From Sphaerolaimus hirsutus (taxonomy: Eukaryota > Nematoda > Chromadorea > Monhysterida > Sphaerolaimidae), in contig OZ038452.1 of assembly GCA_964036195.1 (NCBI GenBank), positions 15,308,704-15,372,703 on the forward strand: a stretch of DNA of 64,000 bases, in the 5' to 3' direction. The notes under the pieces were generated by a model. That model was given only the letters and a program-made list of their open reading frames with translations, was not told the origin of the DNA and searched no databases. Below, piece by piece: positions 6,523 to 56,041 of the stretch (position 1 is its first letter; each line of letters starts with the position of its first letter). Made by a program: the position numbers and the translations under genes.

Positions 6523-8064
6523 TTTGACTTTTGAGCGGGGGGGGGGCTGCTTGTTTATGGACGCCGGCGAACGGGGGGGCTCAGCCTAGGGATGGCAAGC
6601 GCTTTTTTTAAGTACTTTTTTTTTAAACGCCGCCTTTTTTAAAAAAAAGCGCTAGGGTCCCAGCGCTCTTTTTTTAAAAAAAAGCGCTGGCAAAATTTTT
6701 TGTACTTATGCACTAGGTTTTTTGCTAATTTTTTTTGTGCGCAAGGGCAAAATTTCACATGCAAATTACCACTGGTGGCTGTTTTCATTGGTTTTGTGGG
6801 ATTCTTAGTGGCATTGCTGCTATCCCTGGATGCTATCATGTAATAATAAGTTGTGATATGTTAGTGTAGTATAGAATATTCAGCCAATGTGTTCCCAAAT
6901 ACTTCAACAGTGGGGAACATTAGTGTCAATGTATTAGCCTTCTCTTATAGCCTTATTTATAAGCACGATTTCATGCCTAACTTCATTCAAAGTCATGAAA
7001 CTTTAACAAACTGCAATATACATAATGAGTCAACATAAAAAGTTTTTTTTTTGGCAGAAATCACAACTGATCATGTTATCCAATGACTACACAGCCATTA
7101 TATGGCTATATTTATATCATCACAAGTACTGCCACTTGTCTGATATACCTGTATATATTGATACAGAACCATATTTTGGAGGTTTTTAGAGAATGTCTCA
7201 ACATTTTTTGAAAAAAGCGAACAAAAGCGCGTTTTTTTAAAAAAAGCGCCTTTTTTAAAAAAAAGCAGGGCCGTTAAAAAAAGCGCTTTTTTCCATCCCT
7301 AGCTCAGCCCCCCCCCCTAAAATTTTGCCTTCAGCGAGACGGAATGGCGCCATTCGTAGGCGCCATGCCATGGCGCTCTTGGCGTTGGCGCTGGCGCCAA
7401 GAATCGCTCAAATATATGTAAATAAACATATATACGAAGCGACAGGCACATCATTCAGTGTATTTTGGAGAGTATTGTGTGTACAGGTACTGATTTTCAA
7501 AAAAAAATACATCTGTATGAACGAAAATGCGGGCTTCCACGCAAAATTTTTACACAAAAACTTGAAAATTACTACCAAAAGTTGCATTTTCGCCGAGTTT
7601 TTCAGGTCTCACCCGGAAACGGGGGGGGGGGGGGGGGTCATTGTCTTTTATTGTTTTTCACCTTAGAAATCACAGTTTTCGACTGTATACATTTCGATTT
7701 GTGATATAACTATTTTGGCTATTTTCAACCTAATTTAATAGTTTTTTTTCTCCATTCCTGGCTTCTAAACCCTGAAAAAGCCTATACATTTTGCTCCCGC
7801 GACCCGTGAATCTTCCAGCTATCTATCCTCTCGGGGTAGCGATTTACATGTATGCAGCCCCCGCAGGGCGCGGGGGTCAAAATGTTGGAGACCCCAGTGC
7901 TTTTCCACCAGATTGCCACGAAAAATTCAAACACACCTTTCAAATCTGGCATTCGAGCACAAATGATAACACAAACCAGGTCTGACCCTTCCAGCCCTTC
8001 CCCGGCGCTGTTCCAAATTTGTTTTCGACGCCCCTGCTCGAAAATCCTGGCTACGTCCCTGGAA
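6523..8064. mobile_element. Decayed element with GGACTTTTGAGCGGGG / CCTGGCTACGTCCCTGG ends
   Basis: The left part (TTGACTTTTGAGCGGGG, then poly-G, ACGGGGG, CCCCCTAAAATTTT and a GGCGCCATTCGTAGGCGCC block) matches the element at 52397-52799. The right end, AAAATCCTGGCTACGTCCCTGG, resembles GGCTACACCACTGG there. It also holds AGCTATCTATCC and poly-C/G tracts related to the CAGGGGT family. Boundaries are uncertain; it hosts the hAT at 6587-7301. Confidence 0.4.
6587..7301. mobile_element. hAT-type MITE, TAGGGATGGCAAGCGC family, AAGCGC words
   Basis: Starts TAGGGATGGCAAGCGC and ends TTTTTTCCATCCCTA. The exact TSD GCTCAGCC flanks it at 6579-6586 and 7302-7309. Subterminal words are AAGCGCTTTTTTTAAAAAAA. 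The interior (GGTGGCTGTTTTCATTGG) is clearly homologous to the TAGGGTTGG family at 5460-6140, but the poly-T/A word is joined to AGCGC instead of ACGT. Confidence 0.93.
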
Positions 8065-8862: not shown

Positions 8863-9408
8863 TAGGGTTGGGAAAAAAACGTTTTTTTTTAACTCGATGT
8901 TTTTTAAAAAAAAAAACGGGATAGCATTATAAGTGGTGATTTGTGTCAAAAATATCTATTTTTCGTCGACATATCGTTCGTATATCGCCTTATAGTCGAA
9001 TGTTCGTGACTTCAGCTAAAGTTTGGCACGGAATAGTGATCAAACAAGGTTATAAAAGGAGGTTGTTACTTTGGGAGTGAAGTTACACACTGTGGAGGTA
9101 CATGGAAGCACATTACCTCAATATTATATACTACAGCAACATATGACAGCTTATTAACCCATGGTAGCACATAGAAATGAATATTTTGATACTAAAAATG
9201 CCACGAAACCAATGAAAACCACCACCAATGTCAATTTGTGTGTGAAATTGCGCGCTTGCGCGCAAAAATTTTGCAAAATACCTAGTGCTTAGTACTAAAA
9301 ATTTCGGCCGATGTTTTTAATAAAAAAAAAACATTTCGGACGTCATGTTTTTAAATAAAAAAAACGTTTAAAAAAAAAACGTTTAACAAAAAACATCGGC
9401 CAACCCTA
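8863..9408. mobile_element. hAT-type MITE, TAGGGTTGG family
   Basis: Starts TAGGGTTGGGAAAAAAACG and ends CGGCCAACCCTA. TSD GTCCTGAG (8855-8862) versus GTTCTGAG (9409-9416) agrees at 7 of 8. It lies in inverse orientation to 5460-6140, with the same interior (GTGGTAATTGG-type block, TTGCGCGCTTGCGCGCAA). The right arm of the host inverted repeat (about 12.70 kb) lacks it, giving an empty-site comparison. Confidence 0.9.
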
Positions 9409-16787: not shown

Positions 16788-17592
16788 CAGAGTTGCGAAA
16801 GTGTATTTACACTTACCCGAAATACCCGGGTAAATGGGTATTTATATTTACACTTACACTTACACTTTCCTAAAATACCCGTACACTTTTTTTACACTTT
16901 CCTGGGCGAAATACCCGGGTACAGAAAGTGTATTTATTTTCTTTCAGATGGCCCTGTTTTATGCTTTTGAGAAAGGTTCAAGGTTCAGAAAGGTTCAAAA
17001 AACAGGTTCATGTACAAAAAATAACTGCACAGTGCACATGAATTATGCATTGAATGTAGAAAATATGGAAAATGTGCAAACTAGCACTATCACTGACAGT
17101 TGAACAGTACTCATGGTATTCTACAGTTACATCATACTTTTGTAAAAAGGACAAGATCAGTTGAAATTCACCAGCTGGACACAAAGTCGACTGCTTTTGC
17201 ATTGATATTTGCTGCATGTACATTCTTGCATTTAAACAGTGTGTATCGCATTGCTTAATCAGTAAAATATCAACACTGAAAAAGTGCCATTATTAGGCAA
17301 CTTCATACCACTAAATTTGTTACAGTCTGAAATGTTTCATAATCTGCAGTAAAATGTGAAATAATGAATGAAAATTATAGATAAATTGATCTAAAGGTGA
17401 AAACAGTGGTGTTTTCTAATGCTCAACAGTGAGAGCTCTTTCTCAAAAAAAATTTTTACACTTACACTTTTTTACACTTTCCTGGGTATTTTAAAAATAC
17501 CTTACACTTTTGGTATCCATACTTAAAATTTGGAAAGTGTATTTACACTTACACTTACACTTTCCAAAAATACCAGTATTTGAACAACTCTG
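16788..17592. mobile_element. hAT-type MITE, CAGAGTTG family, AAGTGTAA words
   Basis: Starts CAGAGTTGCGAAAGTG and ends GTATTTGAACAACTCTG. The exact TSD CCACACTG flanks it at 16780-16787 and 17593-17600. Subterminal words are AAGTGTAAGTGTAAATAC, with a conserved TACCCGGGTATTTCG block. It is homologous along both ends to 18987-19735 (AACGTAA words) and 33244-33860 (AAGCGTAA words). Confidence 0.94.
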
Positions 17593-17690
17593 CCACACTG
17601 CCAGCGCGCGTCAAACGGGTAATACTACAACAATAGAAAAACTGTCACAAGCACATGTATGTATGTATATGTATTTTTCGAGTAAATGTA

Positions 17691-17765
17691 CCGTATTTAC
17701 TCGAATAATTCCCCCCACTTGAATAATTCCCCCACTCGAATAATTCCCCCCTGTTAGGCGAGTGA
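17691..17765. mobile_element. TA-flanked MITE end fragment (CCGTATTTACTCGAATAATTCCCCC)
   Basis: A TA-preceded CCGTATTTACTCGAATAATT end with two further CTCGAATAATTCCCCC words. A matching right end (CTATTTCTAGGAAATATGG, ending about 18431) lies inside the neighbouring hAT, so the two halves cannot be one simple insertion. Confidence 0.5.
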
Positions 17766-17896
17766 GGAAAAAATAATCACAGATAGACAATTTTCATGAC
17801 AAATAAATATTACGTCATAAGTTTCCGCATCACGATGTAGTTGTAATCGCACCTTTTCTGGCGCCAGCACTCGCAAATAATACCTGTGCATGTATC

Positions 17897-18809
17897 TAGT
17901 GATGGAAAAAGCGCCAGACTTTTGACGCCAAGCGCCAAAAGCGCCATGGCGCTTTTCTGACCCCCAGCGCCAAGCGCCAATGGCGCCAGAGCAAAATAGC
18001 GCCAAGCGCCAAAAGCGCCATGGCGCTTTTCTGAACCCCAGCGCCAAGCGCCAATGGCGCCAGCGCCAAAAATTTGTTCTGCAATTCGTTTGTAGAATAA
18101 TCAATTTGTAGCTGTGACATACCGCTGATGTCGCAGTAGTCAATTTAACTTTTGCAATAAAAGTTCAATCAACCACTACAATGTTTCATACATCGTTACA
18201 ATCCCAAGGGATACACCTATTTTTCAGCGAAACAGCGTTCGTTGATAGGTCCAAAATATTATATCCCATTAAGTCATGTTTATTACCAGTTATGGGTATG
18301 TAACTACCTATTATTTACACTATCCTTCACGATAACTCCTGGCGAAATAATCAACCCCTCCCTCAAAATACCCCCTCAAAATTTGCACTCTGAAAAAATA
18401 AACCCCCTGAGGCTATTTCTAGGAAATATGGTATATACATTTGCCCCAAATATTACCTAATCAATATGTTTTTCATATAAATGTTCCCTTACACCCTTAT
18501 ATATTTATCAATATTTATTCAGTCATTCTCAAAATTGATCAACTGGCTTGTCTATTTTCACTGAATCATAAAAATTTTATAATCATGGTTGGCGCTTTTT
18601 TGGCGCTATTTAAAATGCGGGCGCCAGGCGCCAATAGCGCCACCAGAAAATGGCGCCAAGCGCCAAAAGCGCCATGGCGCTTTCTCAGATCCCGGCGCCA
18701 AGCGCCAATGGCGCCAGAGCGTTTTAGCGCCAAGCGCCAAAAGCGCCATGGCGCTTTTTGCTTTGGCGCTAGCGCCAGGCGCCAGCGCCATGGCGCTTTT
18801 CCATCACTA
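17897..18809. mobile_element. hAT-type MITE, TAGTGATGGAA family, GGCGCC words
   Basis: Starts TAGTGATGGAAAAAGCGCC and ends GCGCTTTTCCATCACTA. The exact TSD CATGTATC flanks it at 17889-17896 and 18810-18817. Both ends carry about 200 bp of GGCGCCAAGCGCCAAAAGCGCC words. The interior (18240-18435) holds half of a CCGTATTT-type MITE. The sequence it interrupts is contiguous in the related segment at 35.43-35.72 kb. Confidence 0.94.
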
Positions 18810-18844
18810 CATGTATCAATCACATTGATTGCACCAGGCACCAG

Positions 18845-18985
18845 TCACATGGGTGGCGGTGTGGCGCACTCGAAGCTGTGGTACAGCTGCTTGGCCAACG
18901 TGTGCTCGGAGCGCAGCATGGACAGCCAGCGCGAGCTAGCTGGCATGTCCAACGAGATCGTGTACCGTCGCGGCGGGTATGACAG
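18845..18985 (+). CDS. Unrecognised exon, copy 1 of a duplicated segment
   Basis: An open stretch follows an acceptor-like GGCACCAG and ends TATGACAG before a donor GT that survives in the right TSD copy of the next hAT (GACAG|GTCC at 19739-19743). It reads HMGGGVAHSKLWYSCLANV, then CSERSMDSQRELAGMSNEI, VYRRGGYDR. Third codon positions are mostly G or C, as in the firm genes here. A second copy at 35570-35716 has the same reading with a stop codon. I do not recognise the protein. hAT elements sit on both sides (17897-18809, 18987-19735), the second right at the donor, so this copy may also be dead. Confidence 0.4.
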
Positions 18986-18986
18986 G

Positions 18987-19735
18987 CAGAGTTGGTCAAA
19001 TACTGCTATTTTTGGAAAACGTAAACGTAAACGTAAATACCTTTTCCAAAATGAAAGTATAAATACTATAACGTAAGGTATTTTTAAAATACCTGGGAAA
19101 ACGTAAAATAAAACGTAAACGTAAAAAAATTATTACCATATTTCATCTAATAGAAGGGCGCCCTTCTATATTTTTCACCAACTTTCTATTATGGAGACGC
19201 CGTCTGTTGAAAGCTGCCCTTCTATTTTTTCGCCAGCTTTCAGTCCATTTTTCACGTTCTGTCAACGTTTTCCCAAGTGTTATGTGACAAAAAATGATAT
19301 TACGACGATTCTTAGAGTTCTTTCAACATTTGATCTTCAAATAGCGCAAAATCAATCGAGGAAAGCCACTAAATAACAGCGTCCGCTGATTTTTTTATAA
19401 GCATTTGGCTCTGCACTGCAGGTGGTGTCGAACTAAAGAATAATTTGAAAATTGAATACACCTATATTGAAAATATGGCTTCTGTGGGGGAAAAGTGCGC
19501 GCTTGCGCGCAAAATTTTTTATGTTGTCGGAAATTTATATGGTGGAAGTTGCATTTTGCTGAAAATTTTTTGGTCTCACAACGTTTTTTACGTTTTCTCT
19601 GGTACCCGGGTATTTCGGTCAGGAAAACGTAACAAAACGTAATGGTATTTTATGAAAACGTAAATGTAAACGTAAGTATAAATACCCGAATAACCGGGTA
19701 TTTCAGGTAAACGTAAATACGTTTTTGCAACTCTG
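18987..19735. mobile_element. hAT-type MITE, CAGAGTTG family, AACGTAA words
   Basis: Starts CAGAGTTGGTCAAATACTGC and ends CGTTTTTGCAACTCTG. The exact TSD ATGACAGG flanks it at 18979-18986 and 19736-19743. Subterminal words are AAACGTAAACGTAAATAC. The interior includes TAATAGAAGGGCGCCCTTCT and TGCGCGCTTGCGCGCAAAA. The TSD overlaps the splice donor of the exon at 18845-18985. Confidence 0.94.
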
Positions 19736-19798
19736 ATGACAGGTCCATTTGTTGGTTTTTTGTTGGTTAAATCCGTCTATTTTGTCACTGATTTATGT

Positions 19799-20296
19799 CA
19801 AAGTTGTTAAAAGTACCAAACTTTTCAAAGTATATTTAAACATAAAGTATTTATTTTTTACTCATACCCTTAGTACAGAAAACAGTCATTTTACCTTTTG
19901 CTCAGGAATATATATTTCCCTGACTGGTACTGATTGATTTAGTAAGTCAATCAACTACCTGATCACTGATTTTCACACTCATTTGCACATGTTCATATTC
20001 AATTTCACTAGTTCATATGCTTTTTGCCTATTTTCTGTAAATTTTGTCTATGGTAGGTATTTGTAAATAGGTATACCTATTTTGGAGTATTTTACCCTTT
20101 TCTCCATTCTATTCCTAGAAAAAGCCTATATAAAACCCATCTGAAATACGTTTTCTGTACTCAAGTACTTTCAAAAAGTATACATAAAAGCGAGTAAAGG
20201 TACGTTTTTTTCAGTGGAAACGTAAATGCATTTACTAAGTACTCTAGTATGCGTATTAATCATGTAAAAATAGGTAGATACGTTTTAACAACTATG
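19799..20296. mobile_element. hAT-type MITE, GTAC/ACGTA words
   Basis: Starts CAAAGTTGTTAAAAGTACC and ends ACGTTTTAACAACTATG. TSD ATTTATGT (19791-19798) versus ATTTAGGT (20297-20304) agrees at 7 of 8. Words include AAAGTATACATAAAAGCGAG and GAGTACAGAAAAC. Confidence 0.82.
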
Positions 20297-20333
20297 ATTT
20301 AGGTGTACTTAACGAAATATGACCTTCTGCGAG

Positions 20334-21262
20334 TAGTGATGTTAGAGGCACCGGGAAAAATGGCACCGCACCGCACCGGCACCTTTGCCAATGCTTGAAA
20401 AGGGCACCTGGCACCCTGGGGCACCGGCCAGAAAATGGCACCGCACCGCACCGGCACCGGTGCCATTCGGAAACAAATGGCACTGGCACCGAAGGGCACC
20501 GGCGGGTTGCCGGTGCTGGCACCGAAAGGCACCGCACCGGGCTGGAATTTCCGAAGTAAATATCGGGCAGTTTCTCAGTGGGCGGGCACGCCTCCGGAAG
20601 TGCATATTTCCATGAATTTTTTACCGATTTTGATGGTTGAGCACTTAAAATGATCAGAATGATGTGGCGATCACTTTTATGAAGCAATTACAATGATTAC
20701 AAATGAATGTTAAAATATTTAATACACTACAATGCCCCATAGCCACGATTGTCTACTGATTGGAGCGTTGCTGTACAGAGAAATGGAACTATCTCTGTCA
20801 TAAACTGACAACAAATTTTGAACAAAAACGAGAAACATAAAATATAAAATTATTTAAAATTCAACAAAATTTTAGATTCGCTCATCAAATCACGCATCGG
20901 GTATAATGGATTTCACAGTAGGTATATTTATTTGATGTTTACAAAATAAGCACAAAACCGTTGGGTGAATACATCACTGTTTTTTTGAAATATGAATAAG
21001 CACATACTGTGGACAAAATTGCACTGCACATGAAGCCTTGGTCGGTGCCTTTCCCGGTGCCTTTTACTTTGGCCCTGGTGCTAGCACCTTTGGCAAAAAA
21101 ATGGCACCGCACCGCACCGGCACCGGTGCTATTCTGAAAAAATGGCACCGGCACCAGCAGGGCACACCTTGAGGATTGCAATGGCACCGCACCAGCACCG
21201 GTGGTGGTGCCCTTCGGTGCCCAGCACCGGGGCACCGGTGCCCCGGTGCCTTTACATCACTA
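20334..21262. mobile_element. hAT-type MITE, TAGTGATGT family, GGCACC words
   Basis: Starts TAGTGATGTTAGAGGCACC and ends GGTGCCTTTACATCACTA. The exact TSD TCTGCGAG flanks it at 20326-20333 and 21263-21270. About 200 bp at each end is GGCACCGGCACC/GGTGCC words. The architecture matches 17897-18809, with GGCACC in place of GGCGCC. Confidence 0.94.
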
Positions 21263-21783
21263 TCTGCGAGAGAAAGGCTCAGCAGCGGAATAAAACAACA
21301 AGTGGACTTCATCATATACCTATTTAAATATTGTATTTATTCATTTATTCATTTGCAATTTATTTTTTAATGGATTATTCGTAATAGGTAGTCACGAACG
21401 AAGGGGTGAAACCGAAACTGCGCTATCTTGAGCGTGGGGGAAATGATAAGACATTGGTATTTTTTGTGTAAACAGAGCGACATCCGGTCAATTATTTTTT
21501 TAAATTCACTTCATTTGGTATGGTTGCACGCTGTTTTTTTTGAAAAACGCACTGGAAACTAACAAATCACCAAAAAAAAACAATAAACCTAAAATGCTTC
21601 TGGTGCCTTTAACGTTTTCTAATAGCTGTGGGAAAACGACACATCACACGACCTAAATTCATCCACCAAACATCGCACTCCACCGATGTCAAGCAAAAGC
21701 AATGAAAGGTACACGATTTGTCATGACAGCGGTAGAATCATTCATCAGCCTGGGCGAGGCTGGCGGCGGAGGCGAGCACCCTG
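21263..21783. other. Intergenic, nothing recognised
   Basis: AT-rich, no supported exon. Around 21395-21500 (GGTGAAACCGAAACTGCGCT ... GTAAACAGAGCGACATCCG) matches 38218-38300, so it is part of a dispersed repeat. Confidence 0.4.
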
Positions 21784-22290
21784 GACCCGGAACGGAAGAT
21801 CGCAGAGCGCGAACGCTGCACGTTCGAATTTGTTGGGGGTCGGATTTGGTGATTTCGATCAAATAGGTGAGTGTAGAAGCGAAAAAAATACTGGTTTTCA
21901 GAGTGACATTTGTGGAAAAACGTTCTTTGATATACCTAAATATTTAGTGTTTCAAGGATAAGAATCACTGAATAACTGAAAAATAGTTTCCGCATTTCTT
22001 TGTCAGTCATTAGTCATTACATCTTTTTTGAAATTGCACATTGGCAGATTGGATTTTTCCGATTTTTTAGACAGTATAAAACAAGTTTTGATACTGATAT
22101 TAAGTCTTGTATTTATTAGTGTTGAATAAAAGATTTAAAAAAACATTTGAAATTTTCACTGAATTTGTGTAACATTTTGCAACTTCAAGATTGTACTTGC
22201 TTTCGCTGACATTTGATTGGTATAGGTAATTATTCCTGTCATTAGATAAGCATTTTTTGCACTTTATCTAGTATAAAAACTGTCAAATTT
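21784..22290. repeat. Segmental duplication copy 2 (partner at 14995-16620)
   Basis: Near-identical to 14995-15236 joined to 16312-16600. Here the sequence upstream of the shared start is retained: after ATTCATCAG one frame reads AWARLAAEASTLDPERKIAE, then RERCTFEFVGGRIW before a stop. This looks like a short exon, unrecognised. There is no insertion in this copy. Confidence 0.7.
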
Positions 22291-22339
22291 TGAGTGAATT
22301 CAAAACTATTTTCTGCATCAAATTATTCAGACACCGTTA

Positions 22340-25300
22340 TTACATAATATAACCGACGCTCATGGTAATGGAGCCGCCCCTGTGCGCGGCGCGGACGCGA
22401 GCGAGCGAGTTCTCTGCGGTGTCCGCGCGCTCCTCTGCGTCCTCGAGCTGGTGCTGGATGGCGCGGTACTTCTGCAGGTTGGTGGTCGCCAGCTCCTCCA
22501 CCTCGTCCACGTTGCGCTTGTACATGCCCAGCTTCTGCTGCAGCTTGTCCACCAGGTCGGTCAGGCGCTCGCCGTTCTTCTTGTCCTCCTCCACCTGCGC
22601 ACCGAGGCAACGCATGCTCACTGGCGCACGCCTCGCATACAGTGGAATCAGCTCAATGAGCACAAATCAATGCCAACCTGGAAGGCAAGTTCGCGCAAGC
22701 GGCGCTCCTGCTTGGCGACGTTCTTCTGCGCCTCGGAGTGTCTGCGCTGCTCCGCGTCCAGCTCGGTCTCCAGGTCGCGGATGCGCACCTCCAGCTTGGC
22801 GATGACCTTCTTGCCGCCCTTGAGCGCGGCCGCCTCGGCCTCGTCCAGCCGCGTCTGCATGTCCTTCACCTGCTGCTCGAGCGCGCGCCGAGCTCGCTCC
22901 AAGTGCATTGCGTGCTCCTGCTCCTGGCGCAGCTCCTCTGCAAACCACACGTGTTACAATGATGAAATGTGCGTTTTGATATGATCTTATGAACCATATT
23001 TAGCGTTCCAAGAATGTCGGGAGATTTACATTTTTATAAAAAAATTTCCAAATTTTTCTGGAGTGATTTAATTATATTTATTTTATGAGAAGAAAATATA
23101 GAGAATCTTACATTTATATTTATTTATATTTACTCTGCGTTTTTCATAGAGATATATTTACTCATTTTTGAGAGATTTCCTGAGATCATATTTGCCGTAT
23201 TTCTTCTAATAGAAGAACGCCGTTATATTTTTGCGTCAATTTTTTTACCTGCCATTCTATTGAAGGTGCTGCTCTATTGGAGGTATGCCATTCTATTAGA
23301 AGAAATACTGTAACTAGATTTTCTGAAAAACACTCATTTTTGAAACGCTAAGCATAATTATGATGAACAGACCAGCCAGGCGAGCAGCATCGGCCATCGC
23401 TTTCTTAGCATTGTCCTCGGCCACGCGCAGCTCAGTCACAGTATCATCCAATTCAGCAGCCAGCGTCTGCAGCTCGCCCTCGGCCTTGCGTTTGGCCGCA
23501 GACAGCGCCGTGTTCTGCACAGACAGGTCGTTCGCCTGGCTGCGCGCCTCCTCTGCCTCGAACTCGGCGGACTTGCGGGCGCGCTCGGCCGCGTCCAGGT
23601 TGTTGGCGAGGTCGTCGCGCTCCTGCTGCAGCGCGGTGGCGCGGCGCTCGGCGCTCAGAGCCTGCTCGCGGAACTCCACCGCAGCCCGGTGCTCCTCCTC
23701 CAGGCTCACTTGCAGCTCCTTGATTTGCTCTTGAGCCCTGAAGTACAGTGTTGGAGTGATTCAATGCACTGTGACCAGGGTTCAAACAATGTCGCATTAC
23801 GATATCAATGACCATATATTTTGGATGTCCATACCGATTTGTATAATTGCTCGATGTCCCTTATTTGATACAGTATCTGGACCGGACTTTGTTTCAATTG
23901 TTTTCCATATAGATAAATTTTCATGATGAAAAACTGTTCAAATTTGATACAGTATATTGTTCCAATGGTAAGTCTTTAAGCACTAACGATGGCAAACAAA
24001 AATTCCACAATTCAAAAACTTTTTTAAATTTCCAATTTTTTTCTTATGTTTTCAAATTTTTATCACTGGAAAAACACTCAAATCGATTTTTTTTCTGAAA
24101 AAAAAATAATTCAGAACTCAAAAAGTCATTGTAGAAAAAAAACACTTAAAAATGTAAATATCTTTTTTCCAGAAGGTTTGCCATCGTTAGTAAGCACACA
24201 AGTGGTGAATGTGAAATATCAGTTTGAGGACGGACTTGCGCAGGTTTTTCTGGCAGTCAGCGACGGCTTTGTTGGCGTGGTCGAGTGCCACCTCCAGTTC
24301 GTTGATGTCCGACTCGAGCTTCTTCTTGACACGCAGCAGTTCAGCCCTCTGGCGGGACTCAGCCTCCAGCGACGCCTGCGGTGGCGCGCCGTAGAAAGTG
24401 CACCCAACCCAGGCAAACCGCAGTGGCTGCACCAACCTGCATGGACTCGAGTGCACGCTGGTGGTTCTTGCGCGTGTTCTCGAACTCCTCCTCTTTCTCC
24501 TGGATGCGGCGTTCGATCTCCTGGCGGATCTGTGACACCTCAACCTGCGCGCGCAGCACCTTGGCTTCCTCAGCCTCAAGCGCGGCCTCTGCCTCGTCAA
24601 GTGCGTGCTGCATGACAGAAATGTATGCATTGATGATGACCATAGCGCGCATCAATTGTAACAAATAAAACCTGCAGCTCCTCTTTCTCCAACTCCATCC
24701 TGCGCACCATCTTCTGCATCTCGTGGACAGTGCGTCCACCCTCAGTAAGCTGGTCACTCAAATCCTTGATCTCCTGGCTCATGGTCTTGTTCTCACGGCG
24801 CAGAGCATCCAGCTGCTCAGACATCTCATCATTCTGTGACTTGAGTTTGAAGCACTCAGCACTCAGATTGCGCGAGTCACGCTGAGAGGCATCCAACTCG
24901 GCACTCAGATCATCACATTTGTGGCGCCATTCCTCAACTATCTTGTCAAAGGTGCGCTGCTTCCGCTCCAGGGAGTCCGCATATGCGGTAGCTCGCTGAA
25001 GTTCACTCTGCGTCTCATCCAGACTGGCCATCAGTTTGGTGCGGGCGCGGTCCAGTCCAGCGATCTTGCTGTTGGCAGCATCGAGTTGTTCCAGGGTGTC
25101 ATTCAGACGAGCGGTAACCTTGCGCTTGGCTTCTTCAATTTCCTCAGCACGCAGCAGACCTGAATGTGAGGTAAATATTTTATGCTGGAGTGTTGGCCAG
25201 TGACAGGAATGCATAGCATGCATAATAAAGATATTGTATTGAATTTTATGCACCCCACTGCATTTATTACCCACACATGAATGAAGAGTACAAACCTTCC

Positions 25301-27561
25301 TGTTCGAAACGCGTGCGCCACTGCATGACCTCAGCATTGGCACTGCTCAGCTGGCGCAGAACATCATTCTTAGCCTCAGCCTCCATGTCCAACATGTCAC
25401 GCAGCTGGTCGAGTTCATGCTGGTAGTTCTTGCACTGGGCTGACAGCGACATGCGCTCCTACATCATACAGAAATCATGTTTCCAAAAACTACACTGCTA
25501 TCTCATTCAATGGAGAAGCAGACAACAACAAACCCTGCCCTCTTCATCTGCCTGGCGCTTGGCATCCTCCATCTGCGAGTTGAGCTGCGACTTGATGCGC
25601 TGCAGGTCAGCCATGCGAGACTCTGCTTCATCCATCTGCCGCTGCAGCTCGCTGTTCTCACCCAGCAGCCGGGAGCGCATCTGTGCAGCGTCAGCCAGCT
25701 GCCGTGCCTGTTCATCACTCTTGATCTGCAGGTCCCCAGCTTGCATTTCAAAGGTTTTCGCCTGGCGCTCAAAGTTGCCCTTGGCTTTGGTTTCTGCATC
25801 AAGAGCCTGCTGAAGTTCATCCACCTCACGCTGCAGTGAATTCTTGTCCTTCTCAATTCTAAAAAGGTTGTGAGGGGAAGATGAAGGGTGTGCTTTTAAA
25901 GCACCAATATACAAAAACAAATTGATTTTGTGATAATCAATGTTGAAAGTTTGAAGTATGCAAACCCATATGGGCATCAGCTATGTATATTCAGAGTATA
26001 GAGTTGGGTATCCAGATGTATGGGTATACTCATTGCTGATCATGTAGATCCAGCTTAATAAAATTTAGCTCATTGAAAGTTACTAGTGATATCGCACAAT
26101 AGGATAACTTAGCATTATCCCTATTTTGGAGAAAAAATGCATTTGCAAAAAGGGAGTGATGAGATGGCACATCTTCAAATAGATCCAGATTATAATGCAC
26201 ACATTGTAACTTACTTAGTTTTTGCTTTGTTGAGAATGTCAAGCTGGTCACCCATTTCTGCAACAGTATCATTGTGCTTCTTGCGCATCCCTGCCATCTG
26301 CTGCTCATGCTGCTGACCCGCATCGTCCAGGTCATGCTTTGCTCTGGCCAACTCAGCATCACGCTTCTTCACCAGCTCCATCTGTGCTGCGGTGGCAGAC
26401 GTGGCTTCATCGACACGCTCCTGCATCTCCTCCAACTCGCGCTGCAGCTCAGCCCGTGACCGGTCCGCCTTGGACCTGGATGCACGCTCTGCCTCCAGCT
26501 CCTCTTCCAGCTCACTGATGCGTGCTTGCAGTTCTTTCGACTGCCGTGTGAGTTTTCCCAAGGAACCTTGCTCATCCTCCAGCCGTGTAGTGAGTGCTTG
26601 GAGTTCAGATTCCTTTTTCTTCAAGTTTCCATCCAACTCAGCCTTCTGTTTGTTCAGCTCATCAATGCTCTCATTGGCCACTTTCAACTCGCCCTCAGTC
26701 TTGCGCTTAGTTTTATCCAAATCTGCTTTGGCACGCTTTTCCCGTTCCACATTGTCTTCGAGCTCATCTAGTGTCGATTCGAGTTTAGATTTCACTTTGT
26801 TCAGGTGAGAGACCTGTTGGAAGTTTATTGTTGATAATTGCCACTGTCATAAATAAATGATAAATGCAACGTGCAGACCTTGTCCTCCTCTGCCTGCAGG
26901 TCCTCGGTGAGTTTGCGAGCGATTTCCTCCTGGGCCTTCTTCTCCTTGTTAACCTTGGCCAGAGCCTCATCCTGCTGCGCCATCTCATCCTGCGCAAGCA
27001 TCCACAGTGTTGCCACAGCTGCCACAGCCACATCACACACACAGACACAGTGTGCTGAGCAAATGAGTAACTGACCTGCAGCGAGCGCAGCTGGTGGTCC
27101 TTACCCTGCTTCTCAGACTCAGCCTTGCGCACAGACATCTCCAAGTCTTGCACATTGCGCTTCAGGTTGGAAGCTTCCTCCTCAGCTTTTTTCTTTTGAC
27201 TGCTCACATCACCAGTCTTGTGCTCTTGATCAGCAATGCGATCATTCAATTCCTGTAACAGTTCAAAACTTGACTTGACACATGTGTATTCATGGCAGGT
27301 GAAGATGTCTCAATGCATGATAGCACACAATACAATGTAAGTACTGTGACATCCAAAAATGTGAAAACACACTTGTACAGTCTTCTCCAGCTCCTTCTTA
27401 GCTTTTTCAAGCTTTTCCACATGGCCATGTGCCTCAGAGCTGTCAGATTTGAATGCATCCAACTGAGCAGTCAGATCAGCCTTTTCCTTCTCCAGTTTGT
27501 TTATTTTGTCCATGACACCCGACATTTTGGCTTCTTCCTCTTTCCTCAGTTTTTCAAGTTC
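22340..27561 (-). other. Mhc: Myosin rod (S2 and light meromyosin) exons 18-29
   Basis: Continuous heptad coiled coil with the 28-residue charge pattern, for example [50 protein letters not shown]-like [20 protein letters not shown]. Exon 21 (599 nt) is the largest. The C-terminal tailpiece is short ([17 protein letters not shown]), lacking the long Ser/Ala-rich tail of nematode body-wall myosins. Confidence 0.92.
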
Positions 27562-30500
27562 CTGAAATTTATGGTTAACAAGTGATTAAATTTTGTTGAG
27601 GGTGGTGAAAAACTGTATGATTAACCTCCAGCCTCGCCTTCTCAGCTGCAGCTGCAGCCTCCTCTTCTTCCTTGCCCTTATCAAGCATGGGGAGGACATT
27701 CTTGTACAATTTGAGCCACTCCCATTCTTTCATTGTAGCCCAGTGTTTCACATTGCGCTGGAGAACGAGGTAGCCTTCCAACTGGTCCTTGCGTCGTGCA
27801 GCATCAGTCTGCACATGTGCCACCATGCAAAACAGTCACAAATCACACATATAAGCATTCATGCAGCCTTGTTTATTTTTTCATATTTGTATGTTTGTAA
27901 GTATAGTTGAACATGACTGAACAACTTGCAACTCATTAGTTGAACATTTGTACATTCAATGCCATCTTTGAAATTCAACTTCAGAAATGACAAACTTTCC
28001 TACTCCCAACTCAAAGTCGGAATGCATAATCTCACCTGAGCACAGTAAAATCTGATCGCAGCTTGGAATTTGGTCATCAGCTTGGCCATAGCATCATCAC
28101 GCAAGTCCTCCATATGCGCCAGGATGCCAGCCTTGAAGAAGACCTTGGTGTGGCCGACCTTGAACATCTCTTCTTTGAGACCACCCTCAGACACCACCTT
28201 GTCCAACATGGCACGCGAGCACTCCTGTATATTATGCCATGATAAAATATATTTTAAAATGCTTTATAATTGGGATAGATATATTCAGGCTGAAAAAGGT
28301 GGATCAATCAGCATGCAACCACTACTGCTGCCCACTGCATGACATTTACTCACCTTTGATGGTTCTGGGTTAGCCTTGCAGGCTTCTACGGCAAGGATAG
28401 TGTAGCGGAACTTGAAGTCATCATGCGACGTCCTGTTGGGGAATCCCTTGCGGCAGATACGGATGCCTTCAAGCACACCATTGCACTGCAGCTGGTTCAT
28501 GACCAAAGCCGCATCAATCAGACCTGTATACACCAGGATTTTGGTACATGTAAAGCACACACATCAGCAGTTACCAGCCTGCGGTCTTCTTTTCATTGGG
28601 GATCAGGCAGCGCACAAAGTGGGGGTGCGTCGTGTGCAACATGGACATGAGCTTGTTGAGCGACTCGCGGTACGCCATCGACACCGTCATCATCGATGCA
28701 GACTTGCCCTTCTTCTTGCCACCGCCGCCACCTGAGAAATGTCACCTTTCACGTTTCCTCACATTGTGGAAGTGGCATATTTGAGCCCCGTGACGAACCC
28801 TTCTTCTGCGCTTCCGACTGCTCCTCCATAGTGATGAAATCGCTCCAGCAAATTTTAAGCAGCGAATTTCCTTTGCTCTGCTTCATGACTTGCACCACGG
28901 AGTCGTTCAGCGGATCCTTGTTCTTCTCCAGCCAGTTGGACACGTTGTAGCGCACCTGTGTTCACACAAAAATGCTGTCACGATTTGATAAAAAAATGCC
29001 AGGCATTGAGCACGTAGATGAGTATGAATATAAAATTTGCAGAATGTGACGAACTAGGGTTGGACAAAAATCAATTTTTTCAAACACCTTGATTAAAAAT
29101 TTATGAACAAATGGGAGTTTTTACACTAAAAATGTCTCAAAACCATTGAAAACAACCGCTAAAGTCAATGTGTATGTGAAATTGCAAGCTTGCATGCAAA
29201 ATAAAAATACCCTGTGCATGCCTACTAGGAATTTTGCCTTTTGATTTGAAAAAAAGTTAACTTCGATCCTGTGATGAAAAAAATCAGTTGGAAAAGTCAA
29301 GTGCCATCTCTATGACGAACCGTGCCGGCGTAATGCCTGACAGCGAAATGGGCCTCTGCCTGCTTGCCCTTTGGCGGCTTGGGCTTTTCCAGGTTAGGGT
29401 GCTTGCCCACATGCATGTCGCACACTTTCTGTCCATAGGTCAGGTCGGTGGCCTTGGGAACGATGCACTCCTCGTCCAACATGGAGATCAGACCCATCGG
29501 CTGCAGGATTTTGTACAAAGTACATAATGCTGCATCAGTGTGAGGTAAAGTCAATGCAGCAAGCGTCAATTCACCTTCTCGAACAGCTCCAAGCAGGACT
29601 GCAGATCGAGTCCAAAGTCGACGAACACCCAGTCAATTCCCTCGCGTTGATACTCCTCCTGCTCCAGGACGAACATGTGGTGGTTGAAGAACTGCTGCAG
29701 CTTCTCGTTCACGAAGTTGATCCACAGCTGCTCGAACGAGTTGAACTGCAAACGCGGGTAATGTAGAGGCATGCTTACATGTTTATGTTTGAAATGAAAT
29801 GAAATGTTTAATAAAAAATCTAAGTGAACGCACGTCGAAAATCTCGAAGCCGGCGATGTCGAGCACACCGATGAAGTAGGCGCGGGGCAGCTCCTTGGCG
29901 TCCAGGGTCACGTTGCACTTGACAACGAGCCAGTTGAATAGACGTGAGAAAACACCTTTGGCCATGGCGCCGATTGCCCATGTTACCTGCAGTGAGTAAG
30001 TGGTAGAGCGAATAAGTCTAAAAAGCACACAACTAGCGATGAACAAGCCGGACCTGTTGCATCGTCTGACCCTTGTTGACCCACTCGGTGCCGACCTTGA
30101 CGCGGGGCTTGCACAATGCTTTCAGGAACTCCTCCGTGTCGATTCCAAACATTTTAGCGCACTTATCGGCATCTGCGAGTGTAAAAAGTTGATTTCAAAG
30201 TTGGTCATCACATTTAAATATTACATTTACCGTATTTCCTCGAAATACCCTGCCCCCACCCTCAAAATGGGCACTATGAATTTGTGGTCCGGGAAATGCA
30301 TAACAGACGTTCAAAACACTTACTGTGTTACGTTAGAACATCGTTTAATAAGGCTGTAAAAACTTATAAATGGTGGTTATTGTTGCATTTTTCACGTTTT
30401 TCTCTCAAAATTTACACTCTGAAAAAATAAACCCCCGGGGGGTAATTCGAGGGAATACGGTATTCAAATAAATATAGTTCAAAAATATGTGTGCACACAT

Positions 30501-33500
30501 TTAGGTAATCGATAACAACTGCAGCGACATGCTCACTAACCATCGGTGCCCTCAGGCTCAGCCTGCTCACCGCGCTGCTTGAACTTCATCTCGCCCATGT
30601 GCAGCAGCGCGGCGCACAGCTTGTACACGTTCTGCTTCTCTTCATTCGTGAATAGAAGAATGTCGAACGCCTCCTGCAAAAAGGCGCACAAGTTTCAACG
30701 TCAAAGTCAATTCGGAAGTGCGCACGGTTTTTGGTTTCGGTTTTCGGTTCAAATAGAGTGGGTAAATAACATATTCTCAGAATGGGGCAACGGAGTATTG
30801 AAATTCAAAGTCCGGTGCACAGAGATGCACCATTCAACGATCAAATTGTCAACTAAGATGGCAAAATGGATAAATTGCATGCACACACATCGGACATGAG
30901 GAACTCTTCTGCATCATCGACGCCAACAATGGTCGTTTCCGCCTGATTTTGGTACCAATATTCAGTTGGCGGTTTGTCGAGCAGCAGCTCCTTCTTGAGG
31001 TTCGGGTTGGCGCCCGACTGGATCTGGTAGAAAATGTGGTAGGCGCGTTCTCCCGGCGCCTGGCGGATCACACGCGACTTCTCCAGCAAGTCTGTGTTTT
31101 GTATTTACAAATTTATCTACCGCATTTCTTCTAAAGAGCGCCATTCTATGTTATATTTACCTGTCGTTTTATTGGAAGTGCCGTTCTATTGGAGGTGCCG
31201 TTCTATTGTTTTTGTGAGTGCACAAACATACCAAAGCCTGCCGTTCTATTGAAGGTGCCATTCTATTGGAGGTATGCCGTTCTACTAGAAGAAATACAGT
31301 AGTCATGGATTTTGTGCAACGGTATGTTACTCAGTTTATTGCATTGAAAAACAGCGCTAAACCAGTATACCGTGAACTGACAGTGCTCAATGTCGCAGCC
31401 GGCCACCTTTCCATCTTTCGAGAAGTGGATGCGGATGAACTTTCCGAAGCGGGAGGAATTGTTGTTGCGCACGGTCTTCGCGTTGCCGAACGCCTCTAGC
31501 ACGGGGTTCGTCTGCACGATCTGCTCCTCTAGGGAGACCTGCGGATGGCGTCACGTGTGTGAATTATATATCCTCAGACAGGCGAAATGATGCAAGCAAT
31601 CTTAAGTCAAATGTATCAGAAACAGCAACCTTCTTTTCCTTTGGCTTCTCAGACTCGGCTTTCGCCGCCTGCTGAGACGCGCCGACGAAGGCGAAATAGG
31701 CAATGACCTTTTTGGTGTTTTCGGTCTTGCCCGCGCCAGACTCGCCGGTGATCAACATAGACTGGCACTGACTGTCTGCGAACGATATTTCGAGATTGCA
31801 CAACACGGTATTCTACGATTGTAAAATTTCGGTCTTTTACTCACGCGACATTACACCTTACAATGAAATCTTGCATATCTCATCTGAATAAAAGAAAAAA
31901 CTTTAATTTTTTTCACTTAATATTTATCACATTGCTGCTACTTGGGTGAATTTGGTGCAGTTTTTCATGTGACCTTTTTCATCAAAATATGGTATCATTT
32001 ATTGTATAGTGATTTGTCTGTTCAGTTTACATAAATATTTTTATAATAATCATAGAGCGCACTCACCCATCAACATGTTCCTGTATGCCTCGTCAGACAC
32101 GCCCCACAAATGGGGAGGCACTTCATTACGCCTCTTGCCCATGAAGATATGGGCCATGCTGTCCGTGTAGATGGGCAAGCGCTTGTACGGGTTCACCACC
32201 ACGCAGAACAACCCAGAGTAGGTCTGCGTGTTGGTGGCGGCTATTAAAGCTATCGCTATTTGTAGCATTTTGTTGTAGAACCTACCTACCATAATTCTTC
32301 TAATAGAAGAGCGCCGTTCTATTTTGTCAACTTTTTACGTGCTGTCCTTTTATAAACATCATTTGTTCATTGGGATTTTCCAAGAAGATTGGGGGGTATA
32401 TTATGATTATTCATTGTGATGGGGGCGCGAATGTCTACAAAAGATGATTCTATTAGAGATACCGTTGAATTGAAGGCCGCCGTTCTATTTTTTACCCATT
32501 TTTCACACATTTTTTCACACATTTTTCATTTGAACATAGGTAGTTTTATGTGTTTAATGAAGCTTGAGCAAAAATTTTATATCAGAGCATCGCTTTGAGA
32601 TTTAATATTTATCAATTCAAATGCTTTTTACATTTTCGCCATCAATGTGTATTTATGACATTTTTGTGCTTTGCCGATTTTCCAAAGTGATATCAACCAG
32701 CTGTTCAATTTGAGGCTGCCGGTCTATTGTTTTCCTGACCGCAAAAACGGGCCAAAAACTGCCGTTCTATTGGAGGTATGCCGTTCTATTAGAAGAAATA
32801 CAGTAATCAGTTGGTTGAATGTGTCGAATGTCTGTGACTTGTAAATAGTCACTTACAAGTCACCGGTCCGCCAAGCTCAACGTGTAACTCACGTAGATGA
32901 GCATGCTGGCGTAGCGGTCGCGCAGGTTCCACAGCACGGACGCGTCGTTCAGGAAGGACAAGTTGGACATGTCCTCGCACTTTGTGAATTTCGGCGGGTT
33001 CATCTCTTGCGCATCGTCTTTTTTCAAGGTGACTTCGTTGCCTGAATCAAAGGATTCGTGGGTGGATGGGTAAGAAAGAAAAGGACGAAAACGCAGACAT
33101 CACCTTTGCATGTCATCACGGTGACCATGTCGCCCTTGGTGGACTTGATCTCGCCGGCCAGGTAGCCCTCCTCCTTGTCGGGCACCCATACGGCCGTCTT
33201 GCCGTCGTGCGGCCTGGCTTGCTCCTGCGGGCGAGCGACAAACCAGAGTTGTTAAAATATTGGTATTTTTGGAAAGCGTAAATGAGGGCGTAAATACACT
33301 TTCCAAATTTTGAGTATGGATACTGTAAGCGTAAGGTATTTTTAAAATACCTAGGAAAGCGTAAAAAACGCGTAAGCGTAAATTTTGTTTTGAGAGAGCG
33401 CTCTTGCTATTGAGCATCGGAAAATACCCTTGCGTTCACATTTAGATCAATGCATCAGAGATTCTGTTCATTTTTGTAAAGTGAATACTTTCACAATCAC

Positions 33501-33988
33501 GCTCTCAGTGACATTTTTCCCACTTGGTAGTCTGCTCTTTGATGTAGATGGCAATTTATGGACAGCGACACTCAATTCCTCTATAGTGCCGCTATTTTCA
33601 GTGTTTTACTGCACACACGCGGTCATTTTTTATGGTACGCATTGTTGTTCATTTTCGTTTTTGTTGTTTTACACTTTTTCAAAAGCGTTAAACTGGACCA
33701 TGTGAAAAGTTTTTTTTACGCTTTTGGTATCCGGGTAAATTGGCCGGGAAAGCGTAATAAAGCGTACGGGTATTTTATGAAAGCGTAAGCATAAGCGTAA
33801 GTACAAATACCCATTTACCCGGGTATTTCGGGTAAGCGTAAATACGCTTTCGAAACTCTGCGACGAACCGACGCTCCACCAAAATGAAACATCCGATGTC
33901 ACTCTGAAAGAATAAAACGCACCGCGGCAATGGTGTCGCGGTCGAGACGCAAGTACTTCCAGCCGGGGTCATTTTCCCATTCACCCAT
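22340..33988 (-). CDS. Mhc: Muscle myosin heavy chain (class II), complete, 29 exons
   Basis: Actin-based motor of the thick filament. Exons (plus coordinates, 5' to 3'): 33923-33988, 33104-33224, 32893-33041, 32067-32223, 31630-31775, 31382-31538, 30889-31091, 30541-30673, 30054-30172, 29834-29986, 29575-29745, 29321-29500, 28799-28955, 28579-28731, 28354-28523, 28036-28224, 27626-27808, 27373-27561, 27076-27252, 26879-26989, 26215-26813, 25534-25858, 25296-25458, 24672-25159, 24437-24607, 24236-24375, 23373-23737, 22678-22937, 22340-22594. They total 5,850 nt, so 1,949 residues, the usual muscle myosin length. The start [17 protein letters not shown] fits the family N-terminus; the end is [11 protein letters not shown]. 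All junctions are GT-AG except intron 14 (GC-AG). No stop or frameshift is seen. No tandem alternative exons were found, unlike insect Mhc. Introns hold hAT and TA MITEs. Confidence 0.95.
23195..23310. mobile_element. TA-type MITE, CCGTATTTCTTCTAA termini (myosin intron 27)
   Basis: CCGTATTTCTTCTAATAGAA at the left and TTCTATTAGAAGAAATACTG at the right, with CCATTCTATTGAAGG words inside. Short copy of the family also at 31120, 32290 and 36302. Confidence 0.75.
27626..27808 (-). other. Mhc: Myosin lever arm / light-chain binding exon 17
   Basis: Encodes [20 protein letters not shown] followed by [20 protein letters not shown] and an Ala/Glu-rich start of the S2 coiled coil. The W.W.KLY segment is the usual hook region at the head-rod junction, bound by regulatory and essential light chains. 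Confidence 0.88.
29055..29312. mobile_element. hAT-type MITE at the 5' splice site of myosin intron 12
   Basis: Starts TAGGGTTGGACAAAAATC and ends AAGTGCCATCTCTA, an asymmetric degenerate TIR. The exact TSD TGACGAAC flanks it at 29047-29054 and 29313-29320. On the minus strand the second TSD copy, GTTCGTCA, is the first eight nucleotides of intron 12, directly after exon 12. Confidence 0.85.
30230..30460. mobile_element. TA-flanked MITE, CCGTATTTCCTCGAA family (myosin intron 8)
   Basis: CCGTATTTCCTCGAAATACC to TAATTCGAGGGAATACGG with TA on both sides. The interior (TACGTTAGAACATCGTTTA, CTTATAAATGGTGGTTATTG) is shared in inverse orientation with 36026-36270. Confidence 0.85.
31120..31299. mobile_element. 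TA-type MITE, CCGCATTTCTTCTAA family (myosin intron 6)
   Basis: CCGCATTTCTTCTAAAGAGC to TTCTACTAGAAGAAATACAG, flanked by TA. The interior is GCCGTTCTATTGGAGGTGCC words. Confidence 0.8.
32290..32803. mobile_element. TA-type MITE, TTCTTCTAATAGAAG family (myosin intron 3)
   Basis: AATTCTTCTAATAGAAGAGC at the left and CTATTAGAAGAAATACAG at the right, with GCCGTTCTATT words near each end. The interior is related to 36302-36749 (ATTTTTCATTTGAACATAGG, GATATCAACC...). Confidence 0.75.
33244..33860. mobile_element. hAT-type MITE, CAGAGTTG family, AAGCGTAA words (myosin intron 1)
   Basis: Starts CAGAGTTGTTAAAATATTGG and ends CGCTTTCGAAACTCTG. TSD CGACAAAC (33236-33243) versus CGACGAAC (33861-33868) agrees at 7 of 8. 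Subterminal words are AAAGCGTAAGCGTAAATACGC, with TACCCGGGTATTTCGGG near the right end. Confidence 0.92.
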
Positions 33989-43705: not shown

Positions 43706-46700
43706 GAGGAATTGCACATGTGCGAATCTATTTATGTCGAGAAAGTTGACACGCCGCCGGACGCCTTACCATTGCTTCGTTCAGACAGGTATAAAAACTG
43801 CATCACATTTGCGCCCTTCTTTAAGTTCCACAATTACAGGGGCAGTGGATTTTATCAGCATTAGAATGTACACCCAATAATATACTCCAGTGCTTTTACA
43901 CGTTACACGTGCTCCAACATGAGATGAAAATGTCCATGTGGAATACCGTATTTCCTCGAAATACCCCCCCCCCTCGAAATACCCCCCCCTCGAAATACCC
44001 CCCCTCAAAATGGACACTATGAACTTATAAACCCCCCCCTCGAAATACCCCCCCCCCAAATTTAGTGTATAGAGAACGTAAATGACAAAGGCTGTGGTTT
44101 GTCATCCCGACAATGCAGAATACACGTTAAAAACGATGACTCTGTTATGTGAGAACAGTGTTTGTACGTCTACACACGTATAAATGTCTTTAGAGTCTTA
44201 TAAATGGCGATTTTTGTTGCATTTTTCGACGTCTGCGTACGTTTCAGACTACATTTTAGTACTGGGATTTCAAAAAATTTCTGGCGAAATAATAAACCCC
44301 CCCCTCGAAATACCCCCCCCCTCGTTTAACCCCCCCTCAAAATTCTCACTCTGAAACAATAAACCCCCCGGGGGTATTTCGAGGAAATACGGTAGACGTT
44401 TTGAATTGTGTTTTTGCAGTTTATTCACAAATTTTTATGCATTTTCAACCAAAAATCATGCAAAAGTGCAAAAAAAATGTTTCAATGGGTTTTCTAGTAG
44501 TGGAAATAAAATTACAAAAGTGGAAAAAATTCACAAAATCGAAAAAGTATTTAAATTTTTTTGTCAACATTAGTCAACAACAATGAAAAGGGTGAGCTTA
44601 GTGCACCACCTTTACAGACAATACATTTCAGAAATTTCAAATTGCAATTTTTGTTGCTGAAATAAAGAAACCTTGAAGAAACCATATCATTCTCATATAG
44701 ATTCTCACTAAATAATCATCAAAAACGATATCTATTATTTCTTCCAGTGTAAAAAATAGTGCTTTCATATCTAAAAAGTAGTCACTTTTATGTTTCCATG
44801 AAAACATACCCACTTCTACACATTATATGAGGAAAAGTACTCACTTTTACATTTTACATGGAAAATTAATCACTTTTTCATTTTCTGGCGAAAAAGTACT
44901 TGCTTTTACATTTTCCTGAAAAACTTTCTACTAACATGTACTCATGAGTACAGGTAAATAAGTATTTTACATTTTCTGTACTCAAGTGTGAGTAAAAAAG
45001 TATTTTGCAAAAACATATACTTTGAAAAAAGTTCAGTAATCTTAACAACTCTGCATTTTATAGCTGATGCCTTTATATGTTGTGTTATCAGGCCTTTGGC
45101 TTTCCTGTATCATCATCACCATCTTGAATGTTTTTTTTCACCGTGATGTGTGCATAACTATGGATGTTTTCAGAAATGCAAGCTCACTAAACTAAGGCAA
45201 TCAATGAGGAGCATAATATCTAGAAAAAGCAACCGCCCCAGTAATTCCGGGACAAATGTAATTACTTAGAACTCAGATGATATCTAATTACAATATGACG
45301 GGATTACCTCTTATAGACATTCGAAAATTAAAATTCAATTAATTGCTGGTAAGTATGAAAATGAATTTGACTGTCGGAATTGTGATCGACCCAGCGCAAC
45401 AAGCAACACCTTGCGCATTGGAAAAACACAGGTTTGTAAGCAGCATTGAAAAAACCCATCAATTTTTAGAAAATATGATTCAATATAATCTCAGAAAATC
45501 TCTCAAGAAAAATAAAATAAAATCTCTCTCAAAAAACCTGCAAAAAATATAAAAAAATATAAATATCAGAATTTGAGAGATTTTCTGATATTTTCTCAGA
45601 AATCTCAGAAAATCTCTCAAAAAGAAAAAAATAATTAAATCTCTCTAGAAAATCGTGAGAAAAAAATCTCAGAAAATCTTAGATTTTCTGAGATTTTTTT
45701 ATTATCCCAGAGATTTTTCATGATATTTGCAAGTATCGTTCATACCGTTATGATCCTGCATACACCAGTTGATAACAGAAGATTCCAAAGCTGATTGAAC
45801 AATATTTTTTTGAGTTTACCAGAAAAAGGAGTCCACGAGCTACTGTTTAACCTGCGAACTGCGATTACAGCACCGCTTGAAATTCAAACATACAATTTTA
45901 CCGCAAATTTAATTGCACATTGCTTTTGGAGAAAGCCTGCTATTTAGGTAGCTGAAACGTGTGATTTTCAGAAAGCCATCCTGTGCGCCCGGTTACGAGG
46001 TTGAAATCTTTGAACTAGCATGCAAATTGCTGCAATGGAATGTCACATTTGTTCCAGAGTTGTTAGAATTACTGAACTTTTTTAAAAGTATATGTAAACG
46101 TAAAGTATTTTTTTTTTACTCACCACAAAGTATAGAAAACGTAAAATACATTTTTTTTACTCGTACGTACGCGTAAATGTGGGTACTTTTTTGTGAGTGT
46201 AGAAACGACTACTTTTCTTCATAGAATGTGTAAAAGTGGGCACTTTTTCATACGTGTATAGCACAACGTATGTTTTTCTATAAGCAAATGACAGATTATT
46301 TAGTTTTCAAGGTCTCTTTTTTCTAGGAGATAAAAATCATCGTTCTCCCGACTCGTTTACCACATCCATTGTCTCCACAACCATTTCGATTTGGTTGCGA
46401 ATTTTGAAATTTTTAAAGGCACTACCCCCGCATATCTAAAATATTCAATGGAACCACGTCTGTAAATACATAGCAGTGTAGTTACTTTATAAATATGTTC
46501 CACATTGAATTTTCATAAATACATTTTCCGTACGCGTACGCTTTGAAAGTGTACGCGTACAAGTGCGTACGGTATTTTTTTGAAAAGTATATGTAAATGT
46601 ATTTACCGTGTACTCGCGTACGCGTATTTTTCGAGTAAACGTACGTACCTTTTAACAACTCTGATTTGTTCAATCTACCGATGGTTACGGTGCACCGACA

Positions 46701-56015: not shown

Positions 56016-56041
56016 CACTACCTATTTAAGCCATTTTTAAA

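Follow-up and report, generated by a model that had tools for sequence, protein, structure and literature searches.

A protein that binds DNA at many sites is thought to be locked into its specificity, as any change would break all of its sites at once. Whether such a lock can be passed is the question raised by three related, hAT-like transposable elements of the nematode Sphaerolaimus hirsutus, which carry different versions of a repeated subterminal word. They lie in the window analyzed here, a stretch of 64,000 nucleotides (contig OZ038452.1, positions 15,308,704 to 15,372,703; C3:15308704-15372703) from an assembly of 348 Mb in 762 contigs. All three are miniature inverted-repeat transposable elements (MITEs), bounded by target-site duplications (TSDs) at the positions given in a preliminary description of the window. 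E1, with GT words, spans 16788..17592 on the (-) strand (805 bp; TSD CCACACTG twice), with its 5' end at 17592 and its 3' end at 16788, and its orientation is reversed relative to E2 and E3. E2, with AC words, occupies 18987..19735 (+) (749 bp; TSD ATGACAGG twice), and E3, with GC words, occupies 33244..33860 (+) (617 bp). The TSDs of E1 and E2 are perfect, and those of E3, CGACAAAC and CGACGAAC, match at seven of eight positions. An exon encoding a myosin N-terminal domain (PF02736; 33100-33230) lies directly beside E3, so this element may sit in an intron. A 98% copy of E2 (locus L010; E2 itself was retrieved as L009) is found about 26 kb away, and since TSD and flank are common to both, the stretch was probably duplicated after insertion.

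When the three elements are brought to one orientation, both ends align, including the long blocks between the words, in agreement with the shared blocks named in the preliminary description. The tips read CAGAGTTG...CAACTCTG in E1 and E2, and CAGAGTTG...AAACTCTG in E3. At 14 sites occupying the same places, the word is GTGTA in E1, ACGTA in E2 and GCGTA in E3, as a rule after AA. The second word had been given as AACGTAA; it is better read as AAACGTA, for then the heptamers form a substitution series, AA-GT/GC/AC-GTA, that differs at two purine/pyrimidine (R/Y) letters in a common frame with no lost base. The 5' array of E1 (17448..17592, (-)) contains seven direct GTGTA words and one inverted word, and its 3' array (16788..16922, (-)) contains six direct words and one inverted terminal word. 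The corresponding arrays with ACGTA words are at 18987..19131 (+) and 19601..19735 (+) in E2, and those with GCGTA words are at 33244..33388 (+) and 33726..33860 (+) in E3. These arrays are not fully pure: one word in the 3' array of E2 reads ATGTA, one in the 3' array of E3 reads GCATA, and one in the 5' array of E3 is destroyed. The 5' end also holds a fifteenth word, in inverted orientation, which is GTGTA in E1 as well as in E3 but AGGTA in E2. The interiors are less alike, with that of E2 matching neither of the others and those of E1 and E3 sharing a 58-base stretch at 78% identity and an 11-base stretch.

DNA searches of the genome with E1, E2 and E3 returned 47, 47 and 72 matched stretches (from the best 40 of 3,154, 4,666 and 2,719 candidates scored, respectively). 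From these and related copies, found mostly by similarity to E1-E3, a set of 80 distinct elements was assembled, each with both tips and TSDs; no more than one mismatch was allowed in an 8-bp tip or between the TSDs. The set comprises 32 AC, 25 GC and 23 GT elements, including the three window copies, and holds a few segmental duplicates (L030-L032; L010 and E2). Three loci that were the window copies themselves (L001, L009, L059) and one element identical to another were dropped, and elements with disagreeing TSDs (such as L040, L047, L050 and L054) or an adjoining N (L002) were excluded, as were those that broke the rules for tips or length. The word of the family consensus stood unaltered at the 14 sites in 287 of 305 cases for GT, 300 of 319 for GC and 341 of 381 for AC. 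Among the words reading xxGT at these sites, no foreign-family word was observed in 68 of the 80 elements, exactly one in 12, and two or more in none. The continuous mixing of words within single elements, which would have spoken against the preliminary description, was thus not found.

The same purity was seen when copies were collected without regard to the word. With the two varying letters left free and up to three mismatches allowed, the genome held 6,163 matches to the 5'-end pattern (control 0), 9,036 to the 3'-end pattern (control 1) and 5,063 to the pattern of words 4 and 5 (control 0). Word agreement was read from the first 100 zero-mismatch places of each of the last two lists, all on contig C1 and thus not a random sample, with some segmental duplicates among them. 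At the 3' tip, the direct and inverted words were the same in 92 of 100 places (36.2 expected; the best of 10,000 shuffles gave 55), and words 4 and 5 were the same in 86 of 100 (47.1 expected; best shuffle 62). Where places could be linked by position into one element, words 4, 5 and the 3' word were identical in 28 of 30 elements (the remaining two had a single odd word each), and word 1 equaled the 3' word in nine of nine. Exact counting gave 2,093 G-Y triplets in all, of which 952 were pure GC; the other 1,141 would be pure GT triplets or mosaics.

The exchange is also concentrated in the R/Y letters of the words. Among the end consensuses of the three families, all 27 comparable R/Y word columns vary, compared with none of 41 GTA-core columns and 37 of 209 others (Fisher P values of 4e-18 and 0.001 for these column classes, with columns treated as independent although they are not entirely so). 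Nine separate tandem runs, distributed over both ends, make up the 14 words, and in the terminal inverted word the change follows the strand of that word. A strand bias of mutation therefore does not account for the exchange by itself, and nor does local slippage. Outside the R/Y letters the end consensuses are 87-94% alike (16 of 248, 32 of 250 and 24 of 249 columns differ). When the words were masked, the alignment was kept over 213 columns, with mean between-family differences of 0.12-0.195. In the tree built from these masked ends, the 25 GC elements formed one group (bootstrap 99), and a second group (82) took in 31 of the 32 AC elements, the exception being L077_82, which is distantly related but likewise has AC words. 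The GT elements form the remainder without a resolved grouping, most inner supports in that part being below 60, and the root is not resolved. The array-wide exchange of words, described from three copies as a coordinated swap, is thereby confirmed as real and genome-wide.

Several features place these elements in the hAT superfamily. Among 85 terminus pairs, some of which are not true elements, 67 distinct perfect 8-bp TSDs gave the logo S-T-W-N-N-W-A-S, which is similar to the nTnnnnAn of Hermes, and the CAGAGTTG tips of E1-E3 are short terminal inverted repeats (TIRs) of the C/TAGNG type, the consensus form of a hAT tip. The hAT C-terminal dimerization domain (PF05699) had 28 matches genome-wide. 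One of these is a 101-residue last exon (49.3 bits; cut-off 21.4) inside a complete AC-word element of 1,266 bp (C7:9378238-9379503) whose TSDs are identical (GCACCATG) and whose ends hold six AC words each. This assigns the AC family to hAT. The GT and GC families would belong to hAT by way of the shared ends rather than through a transposase of their own. A six-frame search of the genome with the AC exon gave 141 matches. Among those of at least 59% identity whose downstream letters were read, nine were followed by ACGTA words (L095, L096, L099, L103, L110, L111, L113, L114 and L115) and one, L112, was not. Multi-copy groups of such exons, sampled at one to four members each, either carried AC words (L113) or belonged to the relative represented by L095 (L110, L111, L114, L115), which has two ACGTA words and a TACGCGTA stretch; L095 itself has two AC words and a CAGAGTTG tip.

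Twenty of the 28 PF05699 loci were surveyed for word arrays. In four loci of 4.4-4.5 kb (L089-L092) no RYGTAA array could be assigned to the hAT gene; that of L092 is flanked by a MITE tip with GC words on one side and a tip with mostly AC words on the other, both from elements that extend away from it. In 16 others, about 640 bp downstream of the match were read. AC arrays were present in L096, L099 and L103, TATCGA in L100 and L101, GCGCCA in L102, AATTCG-like repeats in L107, and CGGAAA arrays of 17 copies each in L093 (1-641) and L094 (1-646), while no clear word array was seen in this interval in L097, L098, L104, L105 or L108. As TATCGA, GCGCCA and CGGAAA arrays lie downstream of PF05699 matches, these word classes are suggested to be hAT-linked too. 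The CGGAAA word is close to the AAACGG of Ac. Beyond the match in L106 lies a GT-type tip whose element extends away, its link to the match not being established. No GT- or GC-family transposase was found among the PF05699 and AC-exon matches read, and seven regular-expression matches to a BED-like motif across the retrieved sequence included none convincing by eye. This pattern is consistent with thousands of small copies that rely on an enzyme produced elsewhere or that have lost it.

A shift in the specificity of the transposase is the best explanation of the array-wide exchange, and is likely but unproven. The heptamer AA-RY-GTA, present in about 14 copies at fixed places, would most likely be the binding site of an N-terminal BED finger of the transposase, with the CAGAGTTG tip read by another part of the protein. 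The BED finger of Hermes binds AAG(T/C): this one domain makes contact with AAGT as well as with the related motif AAGC (PMC10368747). Two of its residues, N67 and R70, adopt two conformations and contact an A in one half-site and a G in the other (PMC10368747); by our own reading, the contacted base would be that opposite the last letter of AAG(T/C). Because the GT and GC words begin with AAGT and AAGC and the AC words with AAAC, while GTA and the tip are fixed, the varying letters are those a BED finger would read. In addition, all of four hAT proteins tested have binding motifs that match their own subterminal regions (PMC8097297). We infer that related transposase lineages came to prefer different R/Y letters, and that amplification was confined to elements in which the entire array suited the new enzyme, which would leave one word per family and few mosaics. 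The three words themselves form a one-step path, GTGTA-GCGTA-ACGTA. The preliminary description, which had hAT binding arrays replaced in concert as specificity shifted, is upheld as to the fixed-place arrays, their concerted exchange and their hAT-like character (the TSD logo and the PF05699 exon in the AC element); its final step is the conditional one.

If the families were unrelated and had built similar arrays independently, dissimilar interiors would be expected, and the interior of E2 is indeed unlike those of E1 and E3; the ends, however, are alike at the level given above, long between-word blocks included, and masking the words did not abolish the alignment. This makes independent origin highly improbable, and the claim that the non-word blocks are related was borne out by the masked alignment. 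It could also be supposed that the GT family is a functionally meaningless, CpG-decayed form of the GC family (GCGTA to GTGTA), since the GC and AC words contain a CpG and its decay is visible in individual copies. Such decay runs both ways within families (C to T in two cases and G to A in nine in the GC family; 16 and 10 in the AC family) and leaves isolated odd words in single copies, yet the 14 sites, each read on the strand of its word, all differ the same way, for which the chance would be 2 x 0.5^14 counted per word and 2 x 0.5^9 counted per run. Decay of AC words gives ATGTA, the fourth corner of the R/Y alphabet. None of the 17 readable triplets starting with AT (of 98 places) was AT throughout: 12 read AT-AC-AC, two AT-AT-AC, two AT-AC-AT and one AT-GT-GT. 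A fourth, ATGTA family was rejected for these readable cases, and in the letters read ATGTA occurs only as isolated decay. As the G/A difference between GC and AC words would also be left unexplained, CpG decay was rejected as the cause of the exchange, and we give it hardly any probability.

A more serious contender, still unlikely in our estimation, is that conversion, slippage or founder events made the words uniform in each lineage and that one tolerant transposase read all the variants, with no specificity shift. The acceptance of both AAGT and AAGC by the Hermes BED domain (PMC10368747) is in keeping with this, as is the probable acceptance of hexamer-related sequences by maize Ac (PMC3260210), and eight of the 14 words belong to runs, two or three words long, in which slippage could bring about turnover. 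Local slippage cannot, however, cover nine separate runs at both ends, one of them inverted, and neutral drift would leave mosaics, whereas no element of the 80 holds two foreign words. Alternatively, the words might bind a host protein, such as a silencer or chromatin factor, and have been exchanged to keep or to avoid that binding. Host proteins derived from hAT elements and having such motifs exist (PMC8097297), but the words are laid out like known hAT transposase sites, being subterminal, present at both ends and densely spaced within 200 bp (PMC3260210, PMC10368747), and this possibility appears improbable.

Several observations weigh against a specificity shift. GT and GC words need not imply different enzymes, because the single BED domain of Hermes accepts both AAGT and AAGC (PMC10368747); one transposase might read both, and the GT/GC part of the three-word shift is accordingly weaker than had been claimed. 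With only three families, selection is not cleanly separable from a few founder events. The inverted 5' word stayed unchanged across the GT/GC swap. Mosaics with one odd word occur, and some are shared by several copies. In the list for words 4 and 5, six of 100 rows read GC then GT, four AC then GC and one GC then AC (two further unequal rows read AT then AC, and one GC then GG), and in the 3' list four of 100 rows combine a direct GC with an inverted GT. Finally, for none of the three families did the sequence read contain a complete transposase or a BED domain. All matched pieces of transposase are C-terminal, and they come from AC-word elements and from the CAGAGTTG relative with some ACGTA words.

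Other elements in the window pair one tip with different words. A scan for 9-bp termini with 8-bp TSDs gave 17 matches, several of them chance-like. A fourth CAGAGTTG element of 609 bp (46055..46663, (+); TSD ATTTGTTC) carries GCGTAC/CGCGTA words and a few ACGTA, and its 5' end aligns with the flank of the hAT remnant L095. Three elements with TAGGGWTGG termini have homologous interiors: a TAGGGATGG element at 6587..7301 (+) (TSD GCTCAGCC), the only one with AAGCGC-type words, and two TAGGGTTGG elements with AAACAT/AAACGT-type words, at 5460..6140 (+) (TSD GTAGTATC) and 8863..9408 (-) (TSD GTCCTGAG/GTTCTGAG). This trio appears to be a second word difference on a homologous background, its words being assigned by eye. 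A pair sharing a 13-bp TAGGGTTCAAACG terminus has dense CGATAT words at 47479..48210 (+) (perfect TSD CACACAGA) and dense CGGGAT words at 57892..58451 (+) (perfect TSD GGGGGAAC), and a pair sharing an 8-bp TAGTGATG terminus has GCGCCA words at 17897..18809 (+) (perfect TSD CATGTATC) and GGCACC words at 20334..21262 (+) (perfect TSD TCTGCGAG). Both pairs are weaker evidence than E1-E3, because little is alignable beyond the tips. Words of the kinds seen in the window recur downstream of PF05699 matches, with TATCGA in L100 and L101 and GCGCCA in L102. The window also contains a CAGGGTTGG element (15237-16303; TSD GTCATTAC/GTCATAAC) with ends of ATAAAA/ATTTTA repeats, and dense tandem arrays at its start (82-1558; units of 115-465 bp) and at 55420-56370 (units of 19-95 bp and of 24 bp).

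These elements allow a broader proposal, put forward tentatively. The hAT elements of this genome may have radiated with the subterminal word serving as a recognition code that can be exchanged. Within each of several terminus classes (CAGAGTTG, TAGGGWTGG, TAGGGTTCAAACG, TAGTGATG), one tip would pair with different private words, and in the best-studied class the steps AAGT-AAGC-AAAC would be single ones, with arrays of about 14 sites exchanged whole and few intermediates. If this is true, the arrays are a direct written record of the evolution of BED-finger specificity, which would be readable from sequence alone. Homologous elements would then have passed through a change of the kind thought to be locked, with all sites exchanged, in thousands of copies within a single genome and, it appears, not in one element class alone, and the evolution of multi-site recognition becomes directly testable.

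No published account of such an array-wide word exchange was found in the literature searched, mostly without subscription journals and in part through incomplete texts. The closest known systems share components of it. The Ac/Ds elements of maize, in which Ac has AAACGG subterminal hexamers, resemble E1-E3 in the 8-bp TSD, the short TIR, the many hexamer copies within 200 bp of the ends and the non-autonomous copies that keep the word; their classes differ in AAACGG copy number, and whole-array word exchange on a homologous end is not described in the accessible portion of the source (PMC3260210). Hermes differs in having both variants within one element, whereas here there is one per family, in regular arrays, and the AC family has AAAC; the GT and GC words nevertheless begin with AAGT and AAGC, the published BED site (PMC10368747). 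The CGGBP and hAT DNA-binding proteins were compared across families, and near-identical ends with coordinated exchange are not described in the available part of that work; like the enzymes envisaged here, they have related binding domains with differing short motifs, which in four cases match the proteins' own subterminal regions (PMC8097297).

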